Assembly (NCBI RefSeq): GCF_900120155.1
Contig: NZ_LT635549.1
Span: 124,001-188,000, forward strand
Origin: Clostridium sp. Marseille-P3244
GTDB lineage: Bacteria > Bacillota > Clostridia > Lachnospirales > Lachnospiraceae
Reading direction: 5' to 3'
DNA: 64,000 bases
The notes beneath the pieces are model-generated. The model searched no databases. It saw only the letters and a program-made list of their open reading frames with translations, and had not been told where the DNA came from. This document shows, one piece after another, positions 32,121 to 42,118 of this stretch. The position numbers and the translations under genes are program-made. Numbering within the stretch: position 1 is the first letter of the stretch; the number at the start of each line of letters is the position of its first letter.

Positions 32121-33266
32121 TTACATACATTCCATCAGAATGTCATAGATCTCGTCCCGGCTCAGTTCTCTGGGCCCGCACTTGATCACATTGCAGGTGT
32201 CCGCCACCTTTCTCAAAAGCTCCGGCGTGATCTCCGTTTTTGACCTGAGCTCTCCCATCTTTGTGGGAAGTCCGCATTCTTTGATAAAGTCTGCCAGCGC
32301 TTCCACCGCTTTTTCCGCAGTATCCACGCCGAATACCTCTTTCCCGAGTCTGGCGAACTTCTCTTCCGCGTCTTTTACGACATGGCGGTAGTACGCCGGA
32401 TGGATGACCGCCAGTCCCTGTCCATGGTTGCAGTCCGTATAGGCTCCCAGCTGATGCTCAAGCTGGTGTGCCTGGAAGTCCGTCACCCTGCCGACTTTCA
32501 GGATCCCGTTCTCTGCCATAGCGGAATCCCACATCAGGTTCCCTCTTGCCTGCATATCATTGATATTTCCCATCAGACGCCTCATATTTACGACTGTGTT
32601 GCGCATGATCGCAAGAGCCACATCGTCCGACACATTGTCCTGATCTGAATTCCCGAAATAGGTTTCCATCGCGTGGCTCAGTGTATCGAACGCGCCCGAG
32701 ATCACCTGCATTCTCGGGACGGAGGCGGTATATGCCGGATCCAAGATGGCAAACCGGGGCGCCGCGGCAGCCATTCCCGCCTTGACCACTTTCTCCTCAT
32801 TGGTGATCACCGCTCCTCCGTTCATCTCTGCTCCGGTACCTGACGCAGTGACGATGGCCCCCATGGGAAGGATCTCCGTGGGGAACTGATGCTCCGTCAT
32901 CTCCATCTCCCAGAGATCCCGGTCCGTCTTCGCCTGTGCCGCCACGATCTTACAGCAGTCAACGACAGAGCCGCCTCCCACCGCAAGGATAAAATCGATG
33001 TCCTCTTTTTTGGCCAGTTCCGCTCCCTCCTGCACTTTTGCATAAGTGGGGTTGGACATGATACCGGAAAAATCCGTCACTGTTTTCCCCGCATCCTCAA
33101 GGATTTTTTTCACCTCATCGTAGATCCCGTTCTTCTTGACAGAGCCGCCGCCATAGGCCAGCATAACGTTCGGTCCATAGCCGGATACAGCCGCTGCCAG
33201 GTGTTCTTTCGCCGCTCCTTCTCCAAAATAAACCTTCGTCGCGTACTCATAAACAAATTTCTGCAT
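32121..33266 (-). CDS. iron-containing alcohol dehydrogenase (BdhA/YqhD-like)
   Basis: 381 residues. GGGSVVDCCKIVAA, VTASGTGAEMNGGAVI, AFDTLSHAMETYF, TDFQAHQLEHQLGAY and DCNHGQGLAVIHP give the NAD(P) and metal sites of the group III iron alcohol dehydrogenases. Paralogue of 27498-28664. RBS GGAGAGG lies about 6-8 nt upstream. First gene of an ADH-MATE-esterase series. Confidence 0.94.
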   Translation of the reverse strand: MQKFVYEYATKVYFGEGAAKEHLAAAVSGYGPNVMLAYGGGSVKKNGIYDEVKKILEDAGKTVTDFSGIMSNPTYAKVQEGAELAKKEDIDFILAVGGGSVVDCCKIVAAQAKTDRDLWEMEMTEHQFPTEILPMGAIVTASGTGAEMNGGAVITNEEKVVKAGMAAAAPRFAILDPAYTASVPRMQVISGAFDTLSHAMETYFGNSDQDNVSDDVALAIMRNTVVNMRRLMGNINDMQARGNLMWDSAMAENGILKVGRVTDFQAHQLEHQLGAYTDCNHGQGLAVIHPAYYRHVVKDAEEKFARLGKEVFGVDTAEKAVEALADFIKECGLPTKMGELRSKTEITPELLRKVADTCNVIKCGPRELSRDEIYDILMECM

Positions 33267-33390
33267 GGTAACCCTCTCCTTTCCTGTCTGTAATCATTAT
33301 AAGCCGCTTTGTATTCTGATTGAAGAAACAATAAGTTCCAGTGTATATACCCTGAGGTTTCTGCCTTTCTCCTCTATAACCAAAAAAGAA

Positions 33391-33435
33391 AGGAGCCCGT
33401 CCTTTCCTGGGTATACCTTTCTAAGACCAGCTCCT
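33391..33435 (-). terminator. terminator of the peptide-export operon
   Basis: Minus strand AGGAGC (33435-33430) pairs with GCTCCT (33396-33391) around an inner CTGG/CCAG stem, followed by TTCTTTTTTG. It lies 22 bp after the HlyD-type gene stop. Confidence 0.65.
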
Positions 33436-33457
33436 CTTATACTATCTCCCTATTCCC

Positions 33458-34954
33458 TCATTCATCTACCAGATCGATCTTCTCCAGCAAATATTCCAGT
33501 ACACTCTTTTCCCCCGTCACCAGTTTGGCCCTCACTGCCATTCCCTGTATAAATTCCGGATCCTCTTTCCCGGCCGTTCCGCCCCGGGCAGTGATCGTAG
33601 CTTCCACCTCATAATAACCTGTTCCGGTCTCACTGTTGACCTTGATATCCCTGGACACAGAAGTTACTTCGCCTTCAAAAACGCCGTAGCCGCCTGTCTG
33701 AGGATACGAAGCCACTTCATATCTTACCTTCTGCCCCTCACGCACAGATCCAATATCCTGATTTTCCACATAGATCACTGTCTGGAATGTGCCTTCCCCT
33801 TCCGGAACGATGCTCCCGATCTGTTCTCCGGCAGACACATGGTCGCCTGCCGTCTTTTCCGCACTCAGGTTCAGGTAGCCATCGGCCTGGGCTTTTACGT
33901 CACATTCCCCAATCCTTGTTTGAATCGTCTCCAGTGTCTCTTTATATTCTCTCTCCCGTCCCTCATATGTGTTGATCTCTGTATTGACAGCATTTTTTTC
34001 ATTATTCACGATCTGTTCTGTGCCAAGTTCCAGAGATCCGTTATTCAGACCCTTTAAATTTCCGGCGGTCTCATTCCGGGTTGTCTGCAGTGATTCCAGA
34101 TTGCTTCGGATCGATGCCAGTGACTGTTCCGCGGACGCGGCAGCCTCTGTCTCGAGCTGACTTAAGGCCAGCGCTTTCTGGTTTTCCAGTTCAGCGATCT
34201 TATCACGATTGTCCGATGTCTCCTGGGAATTTTCCAGTTCAGCGATCTGCATATCATACTGTCTGGCGGTATAGTTATATTGATCAATATACCCCTGTAC
34301 GGCAGTGTAATAATATACTTCATCCGGGCTGAAACTGTTCGTCCGATTACGCATATCAGAAAGCATACGATCCAGCTTTGTTTCCTGATCTGTCAGATCC
34401 GCGATCGAACTGTCGATGCCTGCCAGGCTGTTCTGGTACTGTGTCTGCTGAGCATCCGCGTCTGCATACAGGATGTCCCGGCTGATATTGACAGCCGCAA
34501 GCTTTGTCCGGAATTCTTCATAATAGATATTATCTCTTTGCTGTTCCAGCGCACCCGCTCCGCCGTCCAGCTCCTGATAATACGCCTCCAGGATCTTCAG
34601 ACGCTGACTGATATTCTCCAGTTCGACAGCGCAGCTTTCCTCCTGCCTCTTAAGTTCCGAGGAATCGATCGAGAATATGACCTGTCCTTCTGTCACATAT
34701 TCCCCATCCTGCGCGTCCCACGAAAGAACATTCCCGTCTGTCAGATTTGTGATCGTGGCCGTCGCCCGGCTGTTTCTTATGATACCGTCCGCGCGCGTCA
34801 CCACATCGATGTGAAACAGCCCCATCCAGGCAAGCGCCAGAACCAGGATCCCCGCAAGTGTCCAGATCAGTACCGCGAAAACCGGGCTTGGCCTTTCCTC
34901 GTATACCTCTGTGCTGTCAGACATCTCGTCCATCCTAATTACAACCGGGTTCAC
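33458..34954 (-). CDS. HlyD-family peptide-export accessory (membrane fusion) protein
   Basis: 498 residues. A single TM (about 28-50) is followed by a biotinyl/lipoyl-like half (ADGIIRNSRATATITNL, DGEYVTEGQVIFSIDS), a long alpha-helical coiled coil (about 100-330), then the second lipoyl half and beta-barrel (KAQADGYLNLSAEKTAGDHV, GYYEVEATITARGG). It partners the C39 ABC exporter in Gram-positive bacteriocin and pheromone systems. The start is a GTG overlapping the exporter stop (GTGA) with GGAGGTG 7 nt upstream. Confidence 0.92.
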   Translation of the reverse strand: MNPVVIRMDEMSDSTEVYEERPSPVFAVLIWTLAGILVLALAWMGLFHIDVVTRADGIIRNSRATATITNLTDGNVLSWDAQDGEYVTEGQVIFSIDSSELKRQEESCAVELENISQRLKILEAYYQELDGGAGALEQQRDNIYYEEFRTKLAAVNISRDILYADADAQQTQYQNSLAGIDSSIADLTDQETKLDRMLSDMRNRTNSFSPDEVYYYTAVQGYIDQYNYTARQYDMQIAELENSQETSDNRDKIAELENQKALALSQLETEAAASAEQSLASIRSNLESLQTTRNETAGNLKGLNNGSLELGTEQIVNNEKNAVNTEINTYEGREREYKETLETIQTRIGECDVKAQADGYLNLSAEKTAGDHVSAGEQIGSIVPEGEGTFQTVIYVENQDIGSVREGQKVRYEVASYPQTGGYGVFEGEVTSVSRDIKVNSETGTGYYEVEATITARGGTAGKEDPEFIQGMAVRAKLVTGEKSVLEYLLEKIDLVDE

Positions 34955-37149
34955 AGTTTTTCACCTCCCAGGGACTGGTGCTTTACAAGCTCCGCGTACT
35001 TCCCGCCCATTTTCTTCAGCTCTTCGTGAGTCCCTGACTCAATGATCCTTCCTCTGTCCATTACATAGATCCGGTCACAGTTTTTAATCGTGCTGAGTCT
35101 GTGGGCGATAAATATCGTCGTCATGTCCTTTGAAAACTCCCGGATCGTATCATCCAGCGCCTGTTCCGTCACGGCATCCAGGTTGCTGGTGGCCTCGTCC
35201 AGGATCAGCACGTCCGGTCTTCTCAGCATGGCTCTGGCAATTGCCAGGCGCTGCCGCTGGCCCCCGGAAAGATTCGCGCCGTTTTCCTCCAGACGTGTCT
35301 CATAGCGCAGAGGCATCTCATTGATGAATGTATGAGCCTGTGCTTTTTTCGCGGCATCCACCACATCTTCCATAACCGGATGGTCGATCCCAAGCGTCAG
35401 ATTTTCATAAATACTTCCGCTGAACAGGAAGGTTTCCTGCGGGATATAGGCGATCCGTTCCCGCAGTGTTTCAATCCGGATATCCTCTATGTTGTTTCCG
35501 TCTATCAGGATCTCGCCTCTTTCTGCCTGATAGAGGTGAAGAAAAAGTTTTGCCAGGGTCGTCTTTCCGGAACCGCTTTCACCGACAAATGCCACATTTT
35601 CTCCTTTTCGGATCGTCAGGCTCACATCCTGAAGAACCAGCTCTCTCGTGCCGTACCGGAAATCAATATGTTTCAGTTCAATGTCCCCGGCAATGCTCTC
35701 CGGATGCATCTTCCGCCTCTCGTCATCCCCCTTCTCCGCCTCCAGGTCCAGGATCTCTCCCAAACGGTCTGCCGCCACTACCGCGGTCTGCATCTGAGGC
35801 TGGAGATCGATCAGGTTTTTCACCGGATCCAGGAAATACACCAGCAGAGACTGGAAGGTGATCAGCTGTCCCATCGTAAGCGTGCCATGTATCACATCCA
35901 CGCCGCCAACCCACAGGATCACGATCCCTCCGACCAGCTCTACAAATACTTTCAGGGCATTCTGCATGTTTCCTATAAAATTAAGTCGGAATACACTTTT
36001 CAACAGTTTTACGAACCGGGTCTCCGTCTCATAATTTGCTTTTCGTTCCGCATTAAAGGCTTTCACCGTCTGCATTCCGTTCAGAGACTCTACAAGATAA
36101 GAGGTGAGCTGAGCATTGTCCTCCATCTGGTTCCGGTTCCATTTATCATAACTCTTTCGGAACCCGGCTACGATCACCCCATACAGAACTGCCATGATCA
36201 CCGCGATCCCGAACATCTTTGCGTTCTGCATATACAGGACAACCGCTCCGCCTGCTGCCATCAGCGTATCGATCATGATCGTAAGCGTCGCTCCGGAGAT
36301 CGCGTCTCTTACATTGGACGCGTCGGTGAACCTTGATATGATCTCACCGATCTTCCTGCTGCCAAAGAAGTTCATGGGCAGTTCCAGGATATGCCTGTAG
36401 TACCCCAGGAGCAAAGCGATGTCCAGCTTCTGGCTCAGATACAGCAGCAGATGCGATCGCACGGCATCCAGGATCACTTTAAAAATATTCAGAAAAATAA
36501 CGCCTGCCGACAACGTCGTAAGCGTTCGAAGCAGCCCGTCCGGCAGGATATCATCCATCAGAGCCTTATAGTAGAATGCTCCCGCAATTCCGAGTACGGT
36601 ATAAATAAGAGACGCCGCAAAGATATTCAGCAGAAGCTTTTTCTGGGGCCGAAGCAGATAAAAAAACCGCTGAAACAGTCCCTTTGTCTCATCGCCTTTT
36701 ACAAAGTCTGCCGCTTTTACCAGCAGGATCAGCACTCCTGTCCATCGATATTCGGAAGGTTCGCCGGACCTGGATTTTTCTCCGAAGAATTCTCCCGGAG
36801 TCAGTCTGACGATGCCGCTGGCCGGATCCGCGATAATAATCTCTTTCTTAGTGATCTTATGGATCACGACATAATGCATAAGACTTCCGCGGACCACGAC
36901 ATGAGCGATACAGGGCAACGGGAATTTAGAAAAAAACGCTTTCTTATCACCCTTGACGGCTTGGGAGGAGAAACCAAGCTGCTCCGCCGCCCTGATCATC
37001 CCATAGGCATTTGTCCCCTGCTTGTCTGTTCCTGCAATTTCCCGGATTCTGGATATCGGTATCTTATAACCGTTCTGTTTTGCAATTGTAGCCAGACAAG
37101 CCGCACCACAATCAGTTATGTCATGCTGCTTTACACAGTAGTATCTCAT
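34951..37149 (-). CDS. C39-peptidase bacteriocin/peptide ABC exporter
   Basis: 732 residues from the chosen ATG. The N-terminal C39 protease (1-135) has Q8, catalytic C14 in QHDITDCGAAC, H near 100 in LMHYVVIHK and D in IIADPASG. Six TM helices (about 160-440) follow, then an ABC domain with Walker A GESGSGKTT, signature LSGGQRQRLAIARA and Walker B VLILDEATSNLD. It cleaves double-glycine leaders while exporting the peptide. The longer frame to 37191 lacks an RBS; the ATG at 37149 follows GGCGGGAAAG. The peptide gene lies 80 bp upstream. Confidence 0.95.
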   Translation of the reverse strand: MRYYCVKQHDITDCGAACLATIAKQNGYKIPISRIREIAGTDKQGTNAYGMIRAAEQLGFSSQAVKGDKKAFFSKFPLPCIAHVVVRGSLMHYVVIHKITKKEIIIADPASGIVRLTPGEFFGEKSRSGEPSEYRWTGVLILLVKAADFVKGDETKGLFQRFFYLLRPQKKLLLNIFAASLIYTVLGIAGAFYYKALMDDILPDGLLRTLTTLSAGVIFLNIFKVILDAVRSHLLLYLSQKLDIALLLGYYRHILELPMNFFGSRKIGEIISRFTDASNVRDAISGATLTIMIDTLMAAGGAVVLYMQNAKMFGIAVIMAVLYGVIVAGFRKSYDKWNRNQMEDNAQLTSYLVESLNGMQTVKAFNAERKANYETETRFVKLLKSVFRLNFIGNMQNALKVFVELVGGIVILWVGGVDVIHGTLTMGQLITFQSLLVYFLDPVKNLIDLQPQMQTAVVAADRLGEILDLEAEKGDDERRKMHPESIAGDIELKHIDFRYGTRELVLQDVSLTIRKGENVAFVGESGSGKTTLAKLFLHLYQAERGEILIDGNNIEDIRIETLRERIAYIPQETFLFSGSIYENLTLGIDHPVMEDVVDAAKKAQAHTFINEMPLRYETRLEENGANLSGGQRQRLAIARAMLRRPDVLILDEATSNLDAVTEQALDDTIREFSKDMTTIFIAHRLSTIKNCDRIYVMDRGRIIESGTHEELKKMGGKYAELVKHQSLGGEKL

Positions 37150-37229
37150 AACTTTCCCGCCATGTTTCTTTTTCTTTTGTCTGAGCGGCACTTTTATACA
37201 AAACCTGGAACAGCGCCCTCATCTGTCGA

Positions 37230-37331
37230 TTATTTGAACAGGCCGATAAACCATTCGAGCACAGCCCCTCTGCCCAGCTTCGCTCCGCCTGTACATTTAT
37301 ATAGTTCTTTTTCTGATAGTCTTTTCCACAT
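37230..37331 (-). CDS. double-glycine leader peptide (bacteriocin or pheromone precursor)
   Basis: 33 codons from ATG 37331 to TAA 37232-37230, with GGAGGTG 6 nt upstream. The leader MWKRLSEKELYKCTGG has the consensus spacing of class II leaders (LS, EL, then GG at -2/-1). Cleavage after GG gives AKLGRGAVLEWFIGLFK, a 17-residue cationic (+2 net), amphipathic peptide. It is encoded directly upstream of its C39 exporter and divergent from an AgrC-like kinase/LytTR regulator, so it could be the inducing pheromone, a bacteriocin, or both. I do not recognise the mature sequence. Confidence 0.88.
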   Translation of the reverse strand: MWKRLSEKELYKCTGGAKLGRGAVLEWFIGLFK

Positions 37332-37352
37332 ATTTTCCACCTCCGTACCTTT

Positions 37353-37358
37353 GTTATA
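37353..37358 (-). promoter_or_regulatory. -10 box of the peptide/exporter promoter
   Basis: Minus-strand TATAAC, 22 bp upstream of the peptide ATG. No -35 consensus sits at 17 bp, as expected for an activator-dependent promoter. The LytTR-type repeats lie about 42-73 bp further upstream. Confidence 0.4.
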
Positions 37359-37399
37359 TCTTGAGTGAACCTCTTTCAGGTCGAAAAGTCAACATACTT

Positions 37400-37431
37400 G
37401 TGGTATTCGGTCGCTTAATCGTGCTATTTGG
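37400..37431. promoter_or_regulatory. two 11-bp direct repeats, 21-bp period: putative LytTR-regulator binding site
   Basis: GTGGTATTCGG (37400-37410) and GTGCTATTTGG (37421-37431) match at 9 of 11 positions and start exactly 21 bp apart (two helical turns). This is the arrangement bound by AgrA/PlnC/ComE-type LytTR dimers. They lie midway between the divergent kinase and peptide genes and could control both. A plus-strand TATAAT at 37467-37472 may be the kinase -10. Confidence 0.7.
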
Positions 37432-37498
37432 GGAAAATCAAGCTTTTCTTTCTTCCCGTTTCTTATTATAATTAAATCCAACGAGGAGGATTACATAC

Positions 37499-38767
37499 AT
37501 GAACAGTTTGTTCCGCATATACATGGATCTTCTGGGAAATACCATCGATACCTTTTTGTTTTTCCGGTTCGCAGACAATACTTTATCCCATAAGATCAAA
37601 AATGAATACAAATTCATACTGCTCTGCGTTTATGCGGTATACTCCCTGCCTCCTGACGCGCCTTACTCCACATTTATCAGCCTTGCCGTAAATCTTGTTT
37701 TTCTGCTCGTCTCGGCATGGCCTGACTGGAAAAGATCCCTCTCTGTTCTCATAAAATATACCGTATACAGTTATATCAGCATGTTCCTGATCCTGTTTCT
37801 CCATTCATTGGCTTTTAATGATTATACAACCCTTTTTTCTTCGGATATTTATGAACAGTATAAACTGATCATTGTACTGTTCCTCAGCTACGTCGCTTAT
37901 GTACTGTATACAAACTACAGACAGAACCGCCGGATCCGCTCCCAGTATTATCTTTATTTCAGCATAATTATCGGAGCCGTTTGTCTGCTGGTCAGTTATT
38001 CCACCCTTTATATCTGCCGCAGAGAACCGTCATCTCACATGCTGCCTCTGCTTTTTACAACACTGATCATCCTGATCCTTTTGTGCATCTCGCTCTATGA
38101 CAGATTTCTTGAACTTATTGCCGAGAATGCCAACTATAAAATTCAGGTAAAGATCAACCGTCTGCAGGAAAATTATGCTCTGCAGATAGAAGAAAATCTG
38201 AAAAATCTCCGTTCTCTCCGGCATGATATAAAGAATCATCTGATCATTATTGACGGATACGCGTCACAGAAAAGGTTTGATAAGATACATGAGTATATTC
38301 AAAAAATCGGGGAACATTTCAATGATACCGCGCCGATCCAGACCCCGTCCACTTCACTTTCCGCCATCCTGAGTGAAAAAATGACTCTGGCACGGCAGCA
38401 AAAAATCGCCTGTGAGATCACATGCAGCCTTCCTTATCTGAAAATTGACGATTTTACAATGATCACGATTCTTGGCAATCTGCTTGACAACGCGATCTGT
38501 GCCGCCTCTAAATGTACCGACGGATGGATCAAGGCCGCTCTTTTACAGGAGTCATCCGTTCTTCTGATCACAGTAGACAACAGTCACGCGGAGGAAATCC
38601 AGGAAAAGGACGGAACCTTTATCACCACAAAATCCGGGCGGTCAGAAGCCCATGGGATCGGTATTAAAAATGTCCGCAGAGCAGTAAACAATCTGAATGG
38701 ACAGATGGAGATCAGTTATACGGAAAATGTATTTCATGTCAATATCATACTGCCCAACTACAGCTGA
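37499..38767 (+). CDS. AgrC-like HPK10 sensor histidine kinase (peptide pheromone receptor)
   Basis: 422 residues. Six to seven TM helices in residues 1-200 form the peptide-sensing domain. The H-box SLRHDIKNHLIII has the phospho-acceptor H242 (HPK10 type, RHDxxNH), the N-box is TILGNLLDNAICAASK and the G-box HGIGIKNV. RBS GAGGAGG lies 9-10 nt upstream. It is divergent from the double-glycine peptide and exporter operon and followed by the LytTR regulator; together they form a three-component system. Confidence 0.94.
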   Translation: MNSLFRIYMDLLGNTIDTFLFFRFADNTLSHKIKNEYKFILLCVYAVYSLPPDAPYSTFISLAVNLVFLLVSAWPDWKRSLSVLIKYTVYSYISMFLILFLHSLAFNDYTTLFSSDIYEQYKLIIVLFLSYVAYVLYTNYRQNRRIRSQYYLYFSIIIGAVCLLVSYSTLYICRREPSSHMLPLLFTTLIILILLCISLYDRFLELIAENANYKIQVKINRLQENYALQIEENLKNLRSLRHDIKNHLIIIDGYASQKRFDKIHEYIQKIGEHFNDTAPIQTPSTSLSAILSEKMTLARQQKIACEITCSLPYLKIDDFTMITILGNLLDNAICAASKCTDGWIKAALLQESSVLLITVDNSHAEEIQEKDGTFITTKSGRSEAHGIGIKNVRRAVNNLNGQMEISYTENVFHVNIILPNYS

Positions 38768-38887
38768 AGCCAGAATATTCCATCCGGTGCCGAATATCAC
38801 CGTTTGGTCGCCAAATGTCACATGCTGATTGCGGTTCCTTAAAGGACATGGTAGCATAATCTGAGACAATAGAAAGGGATGATATTA

Positions 38888-39670
38888 ATGCCAAATATCA
38901 GAGTTGCCGTCTGCGACGATGAGGAATTTTATCGGGAAGAGCTTTCAAAACTGATCGTAATCTACGGAAATGAAACAGGGCATCCTCTTTCACCTGACAT
39001 ATGGGACAGTGCGTCTGCTCTCCTTGACGCGGTAAAAAGCGGGGAGAAAGAATACGACATGATCTTTCTTGATATCGAAATGCCGGAGCTCTCCGGTATG
39101 GAGGCGGCGGAAGAGCTCCGTAAAATGGAAAAGCACGTGACTCTCTGCTTTGTGACCAGCCACATCAATTACGCATACAACGCCTATCTTATCGATGCTG
39201 ACGGATATGTACACAAACCGATCCAGTATCTGGACGTAAAAAGGCTGATGGAGAAAGCTGAAATGCAGCTCTGCTACCGTATCAGCGTGGAACAGGCGGA
39301 GAAACGCTATCTGGAAATCAAATCCGGACGCAGGAACGCCATTGTCGATTTAAATAAGGTAGTTTATATCGAAAAACGCAGGAATCAGTGTATCTTTCAC
39401 TGCACCGACGGGGAACAGATCTGTTATGATACACTGAAAAATATTTATAAACGCCTGGATCAGGAACGTTTTGTCTATATCCATCAGGGATTTATCGCAA
39501 ATTACACCCATATCAAAGAGGTGCAAAACGACCGTGTCTGCTTCGGCTCCGGCATGGAAGCTCCTTTAAGCCGCCGGTACTACCCCCGTATCCACGGCTG
39601 GTATACAGACAAATTAAACCGGATCATAGCAGAGCACAGACCTCCGGGAATGGCTCCACGCTCCTCTTAA
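38888..39670 (+). CDS. LytTR-family response regulator
   Basis: 260 residues from the chosen ATG. The receiver has D10/D11, phospho-acceptor D62 in MIFLDIEMP and K110 or so in VHKPIQY. The LytTR DNA-binding domain occupies about 140-240 (LEIKSGRRNAIVDLNKVVYI, FVYIHQGFIANYTHI, PLSRRYYPRI). RBS AAAGGG lies about 9 nt upstream; an ATT at 38879 extends the frame but is not favoured. Separated from its kinase by 120 bp. Its 3' end overlaps hydF convergently by 47 bp. Confidence 0.94.
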   Translation: MPNIRVAVCDDEEFYREELSKLIVIYGNETGHPLSPDIWDSASALLDAVKSGEKEYDMIFLDIEMPELSGMEAAEELRKMEKHVTLCFVTSHINYAYNAYLIDADGYVHKPIQYLDVKRLMEKAEMQLCYRISVEQAEKRYLEIKSGRRNAIVDLNKVVYIEKRRNQCIFHCTDGEQICYDTLKNIYKRLDQERFVYIHQGFIANYTHIKEVQNDRVCFGSGMEAPLSRRYYPRIHGWYTDKLNRIIAEHRPPGMAPRSS

Positions 39671-40859
39671 GGATTCCTTTCATATAAGCGATCAGGATCC
39701 CGTAATTGGTCACAGGGATCCCCTGATCCCCGGCACAGCTTAAGCGGTATTTCATTTCCCGTTCATTTAGCATACAGCCGCCGCAGTGAACGATCAGCTT
39801 ATACTTTGTCAGATCATCCGGGAATTCTGTTCCGGAGGTAGTTTCAATTTGGATATCCTTTCCGGTATATTCTCTGATCCAGCGCGGCAGCTTCACCGTG
39901 CCGATATCGTCACACTGCCGGTGATGGGTACAGCCCTCGCTGATCAGGATCGTATCACCGTCTTTTAACGTATCCAGCGTGGTCACCCCTTTTACGACCG
40001 TCTCCAGATCCCCTTTATATCTTGCAAACAGAATAGAAAAGGAAGTAAGAAGAATATCTTCCGGGGTATCTGCGGCCACTTTTTCAAAAGCCTGACTGTC
40101 CGTGATCACGATCTTCGGTTTATGTTTAAATTCCCCCAGAACCTTCTTCAGCTCTGTTTCCTTGACTACTGCGGAGACCGCGTCCGCCTCCAGAATATCC
40201 CGGATCGTCTGCTGCTGGGGAAGGATGAGTCTGCCTTTGGGAGCGGCTTTGTCGATAGGCACCACAAGTACTGCGATATCTGAGGGCTTAAGCAGGTCAC
40301 GGACGATATACCGCTCCGGTTCTTTTACATCGGCCGCCGCGGCAATTTTTTCTTTCAACGCGCAGATTCCCTCTCCGGTAGCCGCGCTTACACAAAGGAG
40401 CTGCTCTTCTCCCTTATTTTCCCCTCTCAGCTCTTCCCCTGTTTTCTTCAGCACATCCGGGGCAGCCAGCTCCATCTTATTCAAAGCGATCACATAAGGG
40501 ATCTTCTTTTCCCGGATCCTCTCCAGAAGGGCTTTATCCTCCCGGGCCGCTCCGGTACATCCGTCGATGATAAGAACTGCTATATCTGTTTTGTTTAATA
40601 CCTGATAACTCTTTCTGACACGGAGAGCGCCCAGCTCTCCTTCGTCGTCAATCCCGGGAGTATCCATCATAACCACCGGTCCCAGCGGAAGAAGCTCCAT
40701 GGATTTGTACACCGGGTCTGTTGTGGTCCCCCGTACATCGGATACGACCGCGATATCCTGTCCTGTTACCGCGTTCATAACACTGGATTTCCCGGCGTTT
40801 CGTCTGCCGAAAAACCCGATATGCACCCGTTCGGATGTCGGTGTCTGGTTCATGCTCAT
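39624..40859 (-). CDS. hydF: [FeFe]-hydrogenase H-cluster maturation GTPase HydF
   Basis: 411 residues. G1 FFGRRNAGKSS, G2 DVRGTTTDPV, G3 MMDTPGIDD, G4 IALNKMEL. The C-terminal cluster-binding region has EGCTHHRQCDD and the HCGGCMLNEREM motif supplying 4Fe-4S ligands. HydF is the scaffold on which the 2Fe subcluster is assembled for [FeFe]-hydrogenase; it implies HydE/HydG and a hydrogenase elsewhere. Convergent with the LytTR regulator, with a 47-bp overlap. Confidence 0.96.
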   Translation of the reverse strand: MSMNQTPTSERVHIGFFGRRNAGKSSVMNAVTGQDIAVVSDVRGTTTDPVYKSMELLPLGPVVMMDTPGIDDEGELGALRVRKSYQVLNKTDIAVLIIDGCTGAAREDKALLERIREKKIPYVIALNKMELAAPDVLKKTGEELRGENKGEEQLLCVSAATGEGICALKEKIAAAADVKEPERYIVRDLLKPSDIAVLVVPIDKAAPKGRLILPQQQTIRDILEADAVSAVVKETELKKVLGEFKHKPKIVITDSQAFEKVAADTPEDILLTSFSILFARYKGDLETVVKGVTTLDTLKDGDTILISEGCTHHRQCDDIGTVKLPRWIREYTGKDIQIETTSGTEFPDDLTKYKLIVHCGGCMLNEREMKYRLSCAGDQGIPVTNYGILIAYMKGILKRSVEPFPEVCALL

Positions 40860-40894
40860 AATTCATCCCTCCATTGATCTGAAACAGGACACTC

Positions 40895-42118
40895 TTATTT
40901 CACCACAAGCCTGTGGAAATTTTTCTTTCCTTTTTTAAGGATAAGTCCCTCGCCTCCAAAGGCTTCTTTTGAGAACTCTGCCCGGATATCTGTCACCTTT
41001 TCGCCATCCACTGCAGTCCCGCCCTGCTGCACCGCGCGTCTTGCCTCGGATTTTGACGGAACGAGTCCACTTCTTACAAGCATGGTCAGGATATCAATGC
41101 TTCCCTCTGTAAAATCAGCGTCAGTAAGCTCTGTTGTCGGCATCTCTGCCGCGTTTCCTCTGCTGAACAGGGCACGGGCGCTCTCCTGGGCCTTTTGGGC
41201 TTCCTCTTCTCCATGTACCAGCTTTGTCAGTTCAAATGCCAGGATTTCCTTTGCTGTGTTCAGCTGAGCGCCTTCCCATGAATCCATCCTGTCGATCTCT
41301 TCAAGAGGCAGGAATGTGAGCATACGGATACATTTCAGCACATCCGCGTCTGCCACGTTCCTCCAATACTGATAGAATTCGAACGGGGACGTCTTGTCGG
41401 GATCCAGCCATACTGCGCCGGACTGTGTCTTACCCATCTTCTTTCCCTCCGAATTAAGCAGAAGAGTGATGGTCATCGCCCCTGCGTCCTTGCCCAGTTT
41501 CCGGCGGATCAGTTCTGTGCCGGCCAGCATATTACTCCACTGGTCATCGCCGCCAAACTGCAGATTGCAGCCATATTTCTGGAACAGCGCGTAAAAATCA
41601 TACGCCTGCATGATCATATAATTGAACTCAAGGAAACTTAAGCCCTTCTCCATCCTCTGCTTATAGCACTCTGCCGCCAGCATCCGGTTTACAGAAAAAT
41701 GGGGACCCACCTCACGGAGCACGTCCACATAATTCAGGTCAAGGAGCCAGTCCGCGTTATTTACCATCAGAGCCTTTCCTTCCGAGAAGTCTATAAACTT
41801 GCTCATCTGCTTTTTAAAGCAGTCGCAATTGTGCTCGATCTGTTCCGGTGTCATCATGCTGCGCATGTCGGTCCGGCCGGACGGATCACCAATATAGCCC
41901 GTTCCTCCTCCGATCAGAGCGATCGGCTTATTGCCTGCCTCCTGCAGGCGCTTCATCAGGCACAGTGCCATAAAGTGACCCACATGGAGACTGTCCGCTG
42001 TTGGGTCAAACCCGATATAGAATACAGCCTTCCCATTGTTTACCAGATCTCTGATCTCCTCTTCGTCCGTCACCTGGGCGATCAGTCCTCTCGCCTGAAG
42101 TTCTTCGTAAATTCCCAT
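40895..42118 (-). CDS. tyrS: tyrosyl-tRNA synthetase
   Basis: 407 residues. Class I signature HVGHFMAL (HIGH), [14 protein letters not shown], the tyrosine-binding [11 protein letters not shown] and KKMGKT (KMSKS) at the usual positions, with an S4 RNA-binding domain from about 345. Charges tRNA-Tyr. Preceded by a tyrosine T-box leader. RBS AGGAGAG lies 5 nt upstream. Confidence 0.97.

Follow-up and report, generated by a model that had tools for sequence, protein, structure and literature searches.

Streptococci use secreted double-glycine peptides to switch on bacteriocin production, and the question raised by the locus described here is whether a 33-codon gene next to a C39 exporter in a gut Lachnospiraceae genome makes such a signal and, if so, what that signal controls. 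The window, i.e., the whole 64,000-nucleotide stretch of DNA that was analysed, is part of contig NZ_LT635549.1 of Clostridium sp. Marseille-P3244, whose genome comprises 2,972,275 bases in 3 contigs and falls in the same GTDB genus as genome G007. According to a first-pass annotation, the C39 exporter cleaves the product of this gene, which would be either a pheromone or a bacteriocin. The sequence comparisons reported here support that proposal and favour the pheromone, because a divergent GHKL kinase and LytTR regulator accompany the gene, the sensor of the kinase is hypervariable, a promoter repeat is shared, and relatives carry separate bacteriocin-like genes. We regard it as highly probable that the gene makes an induction pheromone of the ComC/BlpC/PlnA type and that the predicted Lachnospiraceae circuit targets, in this genome, only itself.

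Results

The predicted pheromone precursor gene lies at 37230..37331 on the minus strand, where the first-pass annotation had placed an ORF, and consists of 33 codons plus a stop. Read from 37331 to 37230 it yields MWKRLSEKELYKCTGGAKLGRGAVLEWFIGLFK, and its ATG is preceded by the ribosome site in ggtacGGAGGTGgaaaat, with GGAGG 8 bases before the ATG. The leader MWKRLSEKELYKCTGG (37284..37331) is predicted to be cleaved by a C39 peptidase after the Gly-Gly, which would leave a mature peptide of 17 residues, AKLGRGAVLEWFIGLFK (37233..37283). The LS/EL pattern and the GG at -2/-1 that had been read from the sequence are all in the translation (L-12 S-11, E-8 L-7, G-2 G-1; position -4 is a Cys), and in LSEKELYKCTGG the leader ends in GG and has the L/E/L positions of the familiar double-glycine leader consensus. 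The view that the gene is too small for gene callers is doubtful; the minimum of a common gene caller is 90 nt, and this gene, at 102 nt, is just above it.

Conservation of the leader and its GG in orthologous loci, the absence of which had been named as evidence against the gene, was looked for and found. When the profile was drawn up from six relatives, excluding the window's own sequence, the peptide frame came out on top of 1792 window frames (stop to stop, 20 aa or longer; E 2.1e-14; runner-up 0.15). With the seven-row profile a match at E <= 1 was present in 29 of 58 genomes of the genus, only nine of them at E <= 2.5e-11 and the remainder from E 0.03. An orthologous peptide adjoins the exporter in nine of the 58 (window included), being intact in eight and interrupted by an in-frame stop (TAA) in one. 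These nine are the window, seven genomes in stretches L078-L084, and G040, the box positions of which agree with locus L026. G007 and locus L023, a contig of Mediterraneibacter glycyrrhizinilyticus An427, have one and the same peptide. Seven aligned precursors follow the majority leader pattern MWxxLSxKELxxCxGG and have M1, W2, L5, G15, G16 and W27 in common, so that the single Trp of the mature part is invariant in 7/7. Mean pairwise identity among six sequences is 58% over the 16 leader positions and 26% over the W-anchored stretch of the mature part. The leader is thus conserved and the mature peptide is hypervariable around one Trp. It should be noted that the Cys at -4 occurs in the pheromone leaders of six of the seven sequences and that VDGG-like endings are common among cargo leaders; pheromone and cargo leaders may thus be distinguishable to the exporter.

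The region 33000-40900 is overlapped by 94 ORFs of 20 aa or more, which shows how common short ORFs are, and the frame could in principle be a chance or regulatory upstream ORF, or else the precursor of a RiPP or of a cyclic agr-type peptide rather than of a linear double-glycine pheromone. Such an origin is extremely improbable given the held-out profile match and the conserved leader with its GG; as for RiPP and agr-type precursors, neither a modification enzyme nor AgrB was found among the seven window proteins scanned, and the mature peptide contains no Cys. No Pfam family, ComC (PF03047) included, matched the window peptide at E <= 1. A match to the NCBIfam model of lactococcin G-beta was rejected (17.2 bits against a cut-off of 37).

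The next gene on the same strand encodes the C39 peptidase-ABC exporter (34951..37149; TIGR01193 683.9 bits, cut-off 523.85; PF03412), so the placement of the peptide gene directly upstream of it stands. The listed ORF extends over 34951-37191, and the ATG at 37149, which agrees with the start in relatives, is the likelier start. The catalytic motifs that would be needed for leader cleavage were located (Cys in TDCGAACL, His in HYVVIHK, Asp in ADPASG), as were the Walker and signature motifs. Among solved structures the best sequence matches are ComA 8hf4 and 4ry2, an ABC-type bacteriocin transporter which we take to be PCAT1. Of three PF03412 matches in the window genome, this exporter is the only one over the cut-off. 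It is followed by the gene of its HlyD-family accessory protein (33458..34954, minus strand; PF13437), whose GTG start overlaps the exporter stop. The window HlyD has 498 aa, compared with 531-539 in five of six relatives (510 in L026), and is without an insert of about 40 residues.

Divergently from the peptide gene, and not mentioned in the first-pass annotation, run the genes of a GHKL sensor histidine kinase (37499..38767, plus strand; PF14501, PF14689), the predicted pheromone receptor, and of a LytTR response regulator (38888..39670, plus strand; PF00072, PF04397), with the receiver Asp in FLDIEMP. The kinase scores 41 bits against the AgrC model NF046015, under the cut-off of 500; its RHD-KNHL and N-box residues are invariant in 14 kinases. 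A hydropathy scan gave five stretches, two of them overlapping; in kinases of the AgrC/ComD type (HPK10) the kinase part is preceded by six or seven membrane-spanning segments. In 30-residue bins the mean pairwise identity of ten kinases was 56% for residues 1-30, then 35, 36 and 52% for residues 31-120, and 63-86% for residues 121-420. The hypervariable part, residues 31-120 (37589..37858, plus strand), is the predicted pheromone-recognition region.

Both the mature peptide and the kinase sensor are therefore hypervariable in an otherwise conserved locus, as would be expected of pherotypes. The exporter-based scan gave 59 loci, with the closest kinase and exporter orthologues in L019-L026 and L052, and for two of these, L021 and L023, the DNA could be compared in blocks. 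The C-terminal half of the kinase and the exporter start are 86-100% identical and the longer flanks on both sides 93.9-98.9%, whereas the block of kinase sensor, promoter and peptide between them is 20-66% identical, with gaps. The difference looks like what a pherotype exchange would leave behind. Peptide distances did not correlate with distances of the kinase sensor (residues 31-120) in a Mantel test (r = -0.03, P 0.54, seven sequences), L026 being left out and only part of the stretch after the stop being entered for the broken L019 peptide; one-to-one pairing of peptide and receptor is thus not proved, and matched pairing rests on one block swap together with the shared hypervariability.

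The two transcription units share a tandem direct repeat, CCAAATAGCAC-N10-CCGAATACCAC, predicted to be the site of the LytTR regulator. One copy is at the peptide/exporter promoter (37400..37431, minus strand) and a second is upstream of the regulator gene (38790..38821, plus strand), where it would serve autoregulation; both fit the pattern CCRAATRNCAC-N10-CCRAATRNCAC with 0 mismatches, and a similar repeat precedes the peptide genes of relatives. The predicted peptide promoter (37364..37392, minus strand) has TTGACT (37387-37392) 7 bp after the repeat, followed by a 17-bp spacer and a weak putative -10 box, TTCACT (37364-37369), which is a poor one. Shuffling gives an expectation of 0.03 repeats in the window against the two found, and in the whole window genome the repeat occurs with <= 2 mismatches at the peptide and regulator promoters only. 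At 3 mismatches there are nine matches, of which five are copies of one element and the other four equal the reversed-pattern control (4). A script listed 27 boxes in the loci of nine relatives, and in 23 of them TTG follows at exactly 7 bp (its pattern missed some boxes, e.g., the peptide boxes of L020 and L021), and the distance is the same at both window boxes. A looser box with <= 2 mismatches matches in 38 of the 58 genus genomes, but so does the reversed control in many genomes; weak boxes are therefore disregarded and only near-perfect boxes count. Among 299 family genomes, one per genus, the box plus TTG was found in three, the window's included, and the control in none. The other two are G103 and G238. 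In G238, from another Lachnospiraceae genus (L153, L155, L156, L157), the same tandem repeat stands ahead of a gene resembling a regulator and of genes whose long protein products begin like signal peptides, and may control other outputs there.

In relatives the circuit comes with bacteriocin-like genes. Each of the eight other genus genomes with a peptide (seven intact, one broken) has such genes on the contig that carries the peptide, and they stand behind the repeat wherever loci were read. Among the loci of nine relatives, a pair of small double-glycine precursors follows a box 3' of HlyD in six, behind a second and more distant box in the case of L025; L052 has a single precursor, and L019 and L024 end too soon. 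The gap between kinase and regulator, among six loci listed, holds a pair in five (one of the two in L022 is without a plain GG) and a single precursor in L052; this gap is just 53 bases in L021 and 95 in L026. Ten cargo proteins of relatives were scanned: one is over the PF10439 cut-off, one over that of lactococcin G-beta and one is CAAX-protease-like, a type linked to immunity, while six match PF10439 or other models below cut-off and one has no match.

A 16-sequence bacteriocin profile (A2) detected bacteriocin-like genes in 11 of the 58 genus genomes, namely the eight other peptide-bearing ones and three in which no peptide was detected, and detected none in the window genome. No bacteriocin gene was found there under the same box. 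As A2 was derived from relatives among those it was searched in, it could overlook a window-genome bacteriocin of very different sequence; searching for the repeat provides an independent check. The one PF10439 match in the window genome (E 2.3) was rejected. The leader model TIGR01847 has no match in the window genome, and as it misses even the window's own peptide its silence says little. In the window, the two gaps that hold cargo in relatives measure 120 bases (38768-38887) and 191 bases (33267-33457). Of the nine peptide-bearing genus genomes, that of the window alone has no detected bacteriocin-like genes, and with no cargo found its visible regulon is the circuit itself.

The empty gaps raise the issue of whether the 17-residue peptide is itself the effector, either as a small bacteriocin of class II or as a signal that also has some antimicrobial activity, in which case the cargo-free circuit would gain an output. 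No other double-glycine peptide is visible behind the promoter repeat in the window genome, and the peptide has by residue count a charge of +2. Against this, relatives have separate bacteriocin-like genes, no immunity-type protein was found among the seven window proteins scanned (a scan of proteins larger than the small ORFs), and the pairing of peptide variability with kinase-sensor variability fits a signal. The idea of an amphipathic helix was rejected, the helical hydrophobic moment of 0.42 being not above that of shuffled versions (0.43); among eight peptides only that of L026 exceeds 95% of its own shuffles. An effector role is highly unlikely on this evidence.

Several relatives carry broken or partial versions of the circuit. 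At L019 (1795-4808; L003/L079) the peptide has an in-frame stop and two kinase genes stand in tandem, the second being 53-80% identical to the kinase of L025 over residues 31-120. L052 (5001-5066; G051 by box positions) has kept kinase, regulator and cargo, appears to be without the peptide and the first part of the exporter, and is a possible listener without a signal. At least L019 and L052 are metagenome assemblies. In L118 (163-1756; G013) the kinase shares 69% identity with that of the window, and the peptide-promoter box of L025 recurs unchanged, but the ORF behind that box is a different one of 49 aa and there is no pheromone there; the kinase frame of L020 is short. Putative sender and receiver are thus separated in several relatives.

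Such degraded versions, together with the unique lack of detected bacteriocin-like genes in the window genome, would suit a non-functional remnant whose cargo has been lost and whose signalling genes are decaying though not yet broken. This seems highly unlikely for the window, where peptide, kinase, regulator, exporter and HlyD are all open over their full length, the catalytic motifs are present and neither promoter repeat has a mismatch.

Discussion

Homology and gene arrangement point to the following chain of expression, cleavage, secretion, binding, phosphorylation and autoinduction. The C39 domain of the downstream exporter would recognise the 16-residue leader and cut after Gly-Gly, releasing the 17-residue peptide, which would bind the divergent GHKL kinase at its variable membrane sensor, roughly residues 31-120. 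The kinase would phosphorylate the LytTR regulator, and this would bind the tandem 11-bp repeats (21-bp period) that lie just 5' of two -35 elements, that of its own gene and that of the operon of peptide and exporter, closing a positive-feedback loop at both promoters. In relatives the same regulator would also turn on the adjacent two-peptide bacteriocin operons, the products of which the same transporter would export. The window genome would then contain either a bacteriocin locus from which the cargo has been lost or a signalling module whose output has escaped recognition.

The type of circuit is known, and the missing cargo is its odd, unexplained part. In the plantaricin systems of lactobacilli, three-component systems of the PlnA type, there is likewise an induction peptide, and the operons of two-peptide bacteriocins are separate from it and preceded by a repeated box. 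A near relative in design is the gallocin circuit GSP-BlpHR-BlpAB of Streptococcus gallolyticus (PMC8545106, PMC8545107): it likewise has a peptide with a GG leader, a ComAB-like exporter, a membrane kinase and a LytTR regulator, the exporter also exports a two-peptide bacteriocin, the operator lies just 5' of the -35, as predicted here, and the regulon comprises little more than the circuit and the bacteriocin genes. Cleavage of GSP takes place three residues beyond the GG (PMC8545107). The window differs in its Lachnospiraceae host, in that its kinase and regulator genes run opposite to those of peptide and exporter, in the sequences of peptide and operator, and in that no bacteriocin genes were found in its genome. 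With ComC-ComD-ComE and BlpC-BlpH-BlpR of Streptococcus pneumoniae it shares a conserved leader, an allelic mature peptide and direct-repeat regulator sites, and in pneumococcal pherotypes receptor changes accompany peptide alleles (PMC7595303, PMC5295010). In contrast to these systems, the window peptide has no Pfam ComC match and has a 16-residue leader with Cys at -4.

Within the family, L151 (G103, another genus) has the same repeat plus TTG, followed by a Trp-containing GG peptide of 44 aa and then by a class II bacteriocin-like ORF that is also in L072, a record of Lactobacillus rogosae ATCC 27753; its mature peptide is unlike the window's apart from the Trp and hydrophobic residues. The Hungate1000 survey of rumen isolates (PMC13289728) describes two-component GG bacteriocins, and the word pheromone is absent from its main text. 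A search of the mediterrocin report on M. gnavus (PMC12345188) for terms of the locus met a single line of the reference list, and so gave no sign of a circuit of the window's type. Among the matches listed from open-licence literature, with subscription journals outside the scope, nothing concerned the window peptide or a GG pheromone circuit in Mediterraneibacter.

An additional scenario, which we consider unlikely though less so than the effector or the remnant, is that the intact circuit, whose only recognisable genomic targets are its own two promoters and which has no bacteriocin, could act socially or gate an output through non-canonical sites. If it is social, the signal would trigger or mislead bacteriocin production in Mediterraneibacter neighbours of the same pherotype. 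A cargo-free circuit, next to relatives which have the kinase without an intact pheromone, poses the question of what role signals play once sender, receiver and output have separated. The induction pheromone that we favour provides a concrete peptide, receptor, regulator, operator and set of natural alleles for a streptococcus-like circuit in gut Lachnospiraceae, and would thereby bring signalling and bacteriocin control there within reach of a test that needs just a single synthetic peptide and a single reporter.
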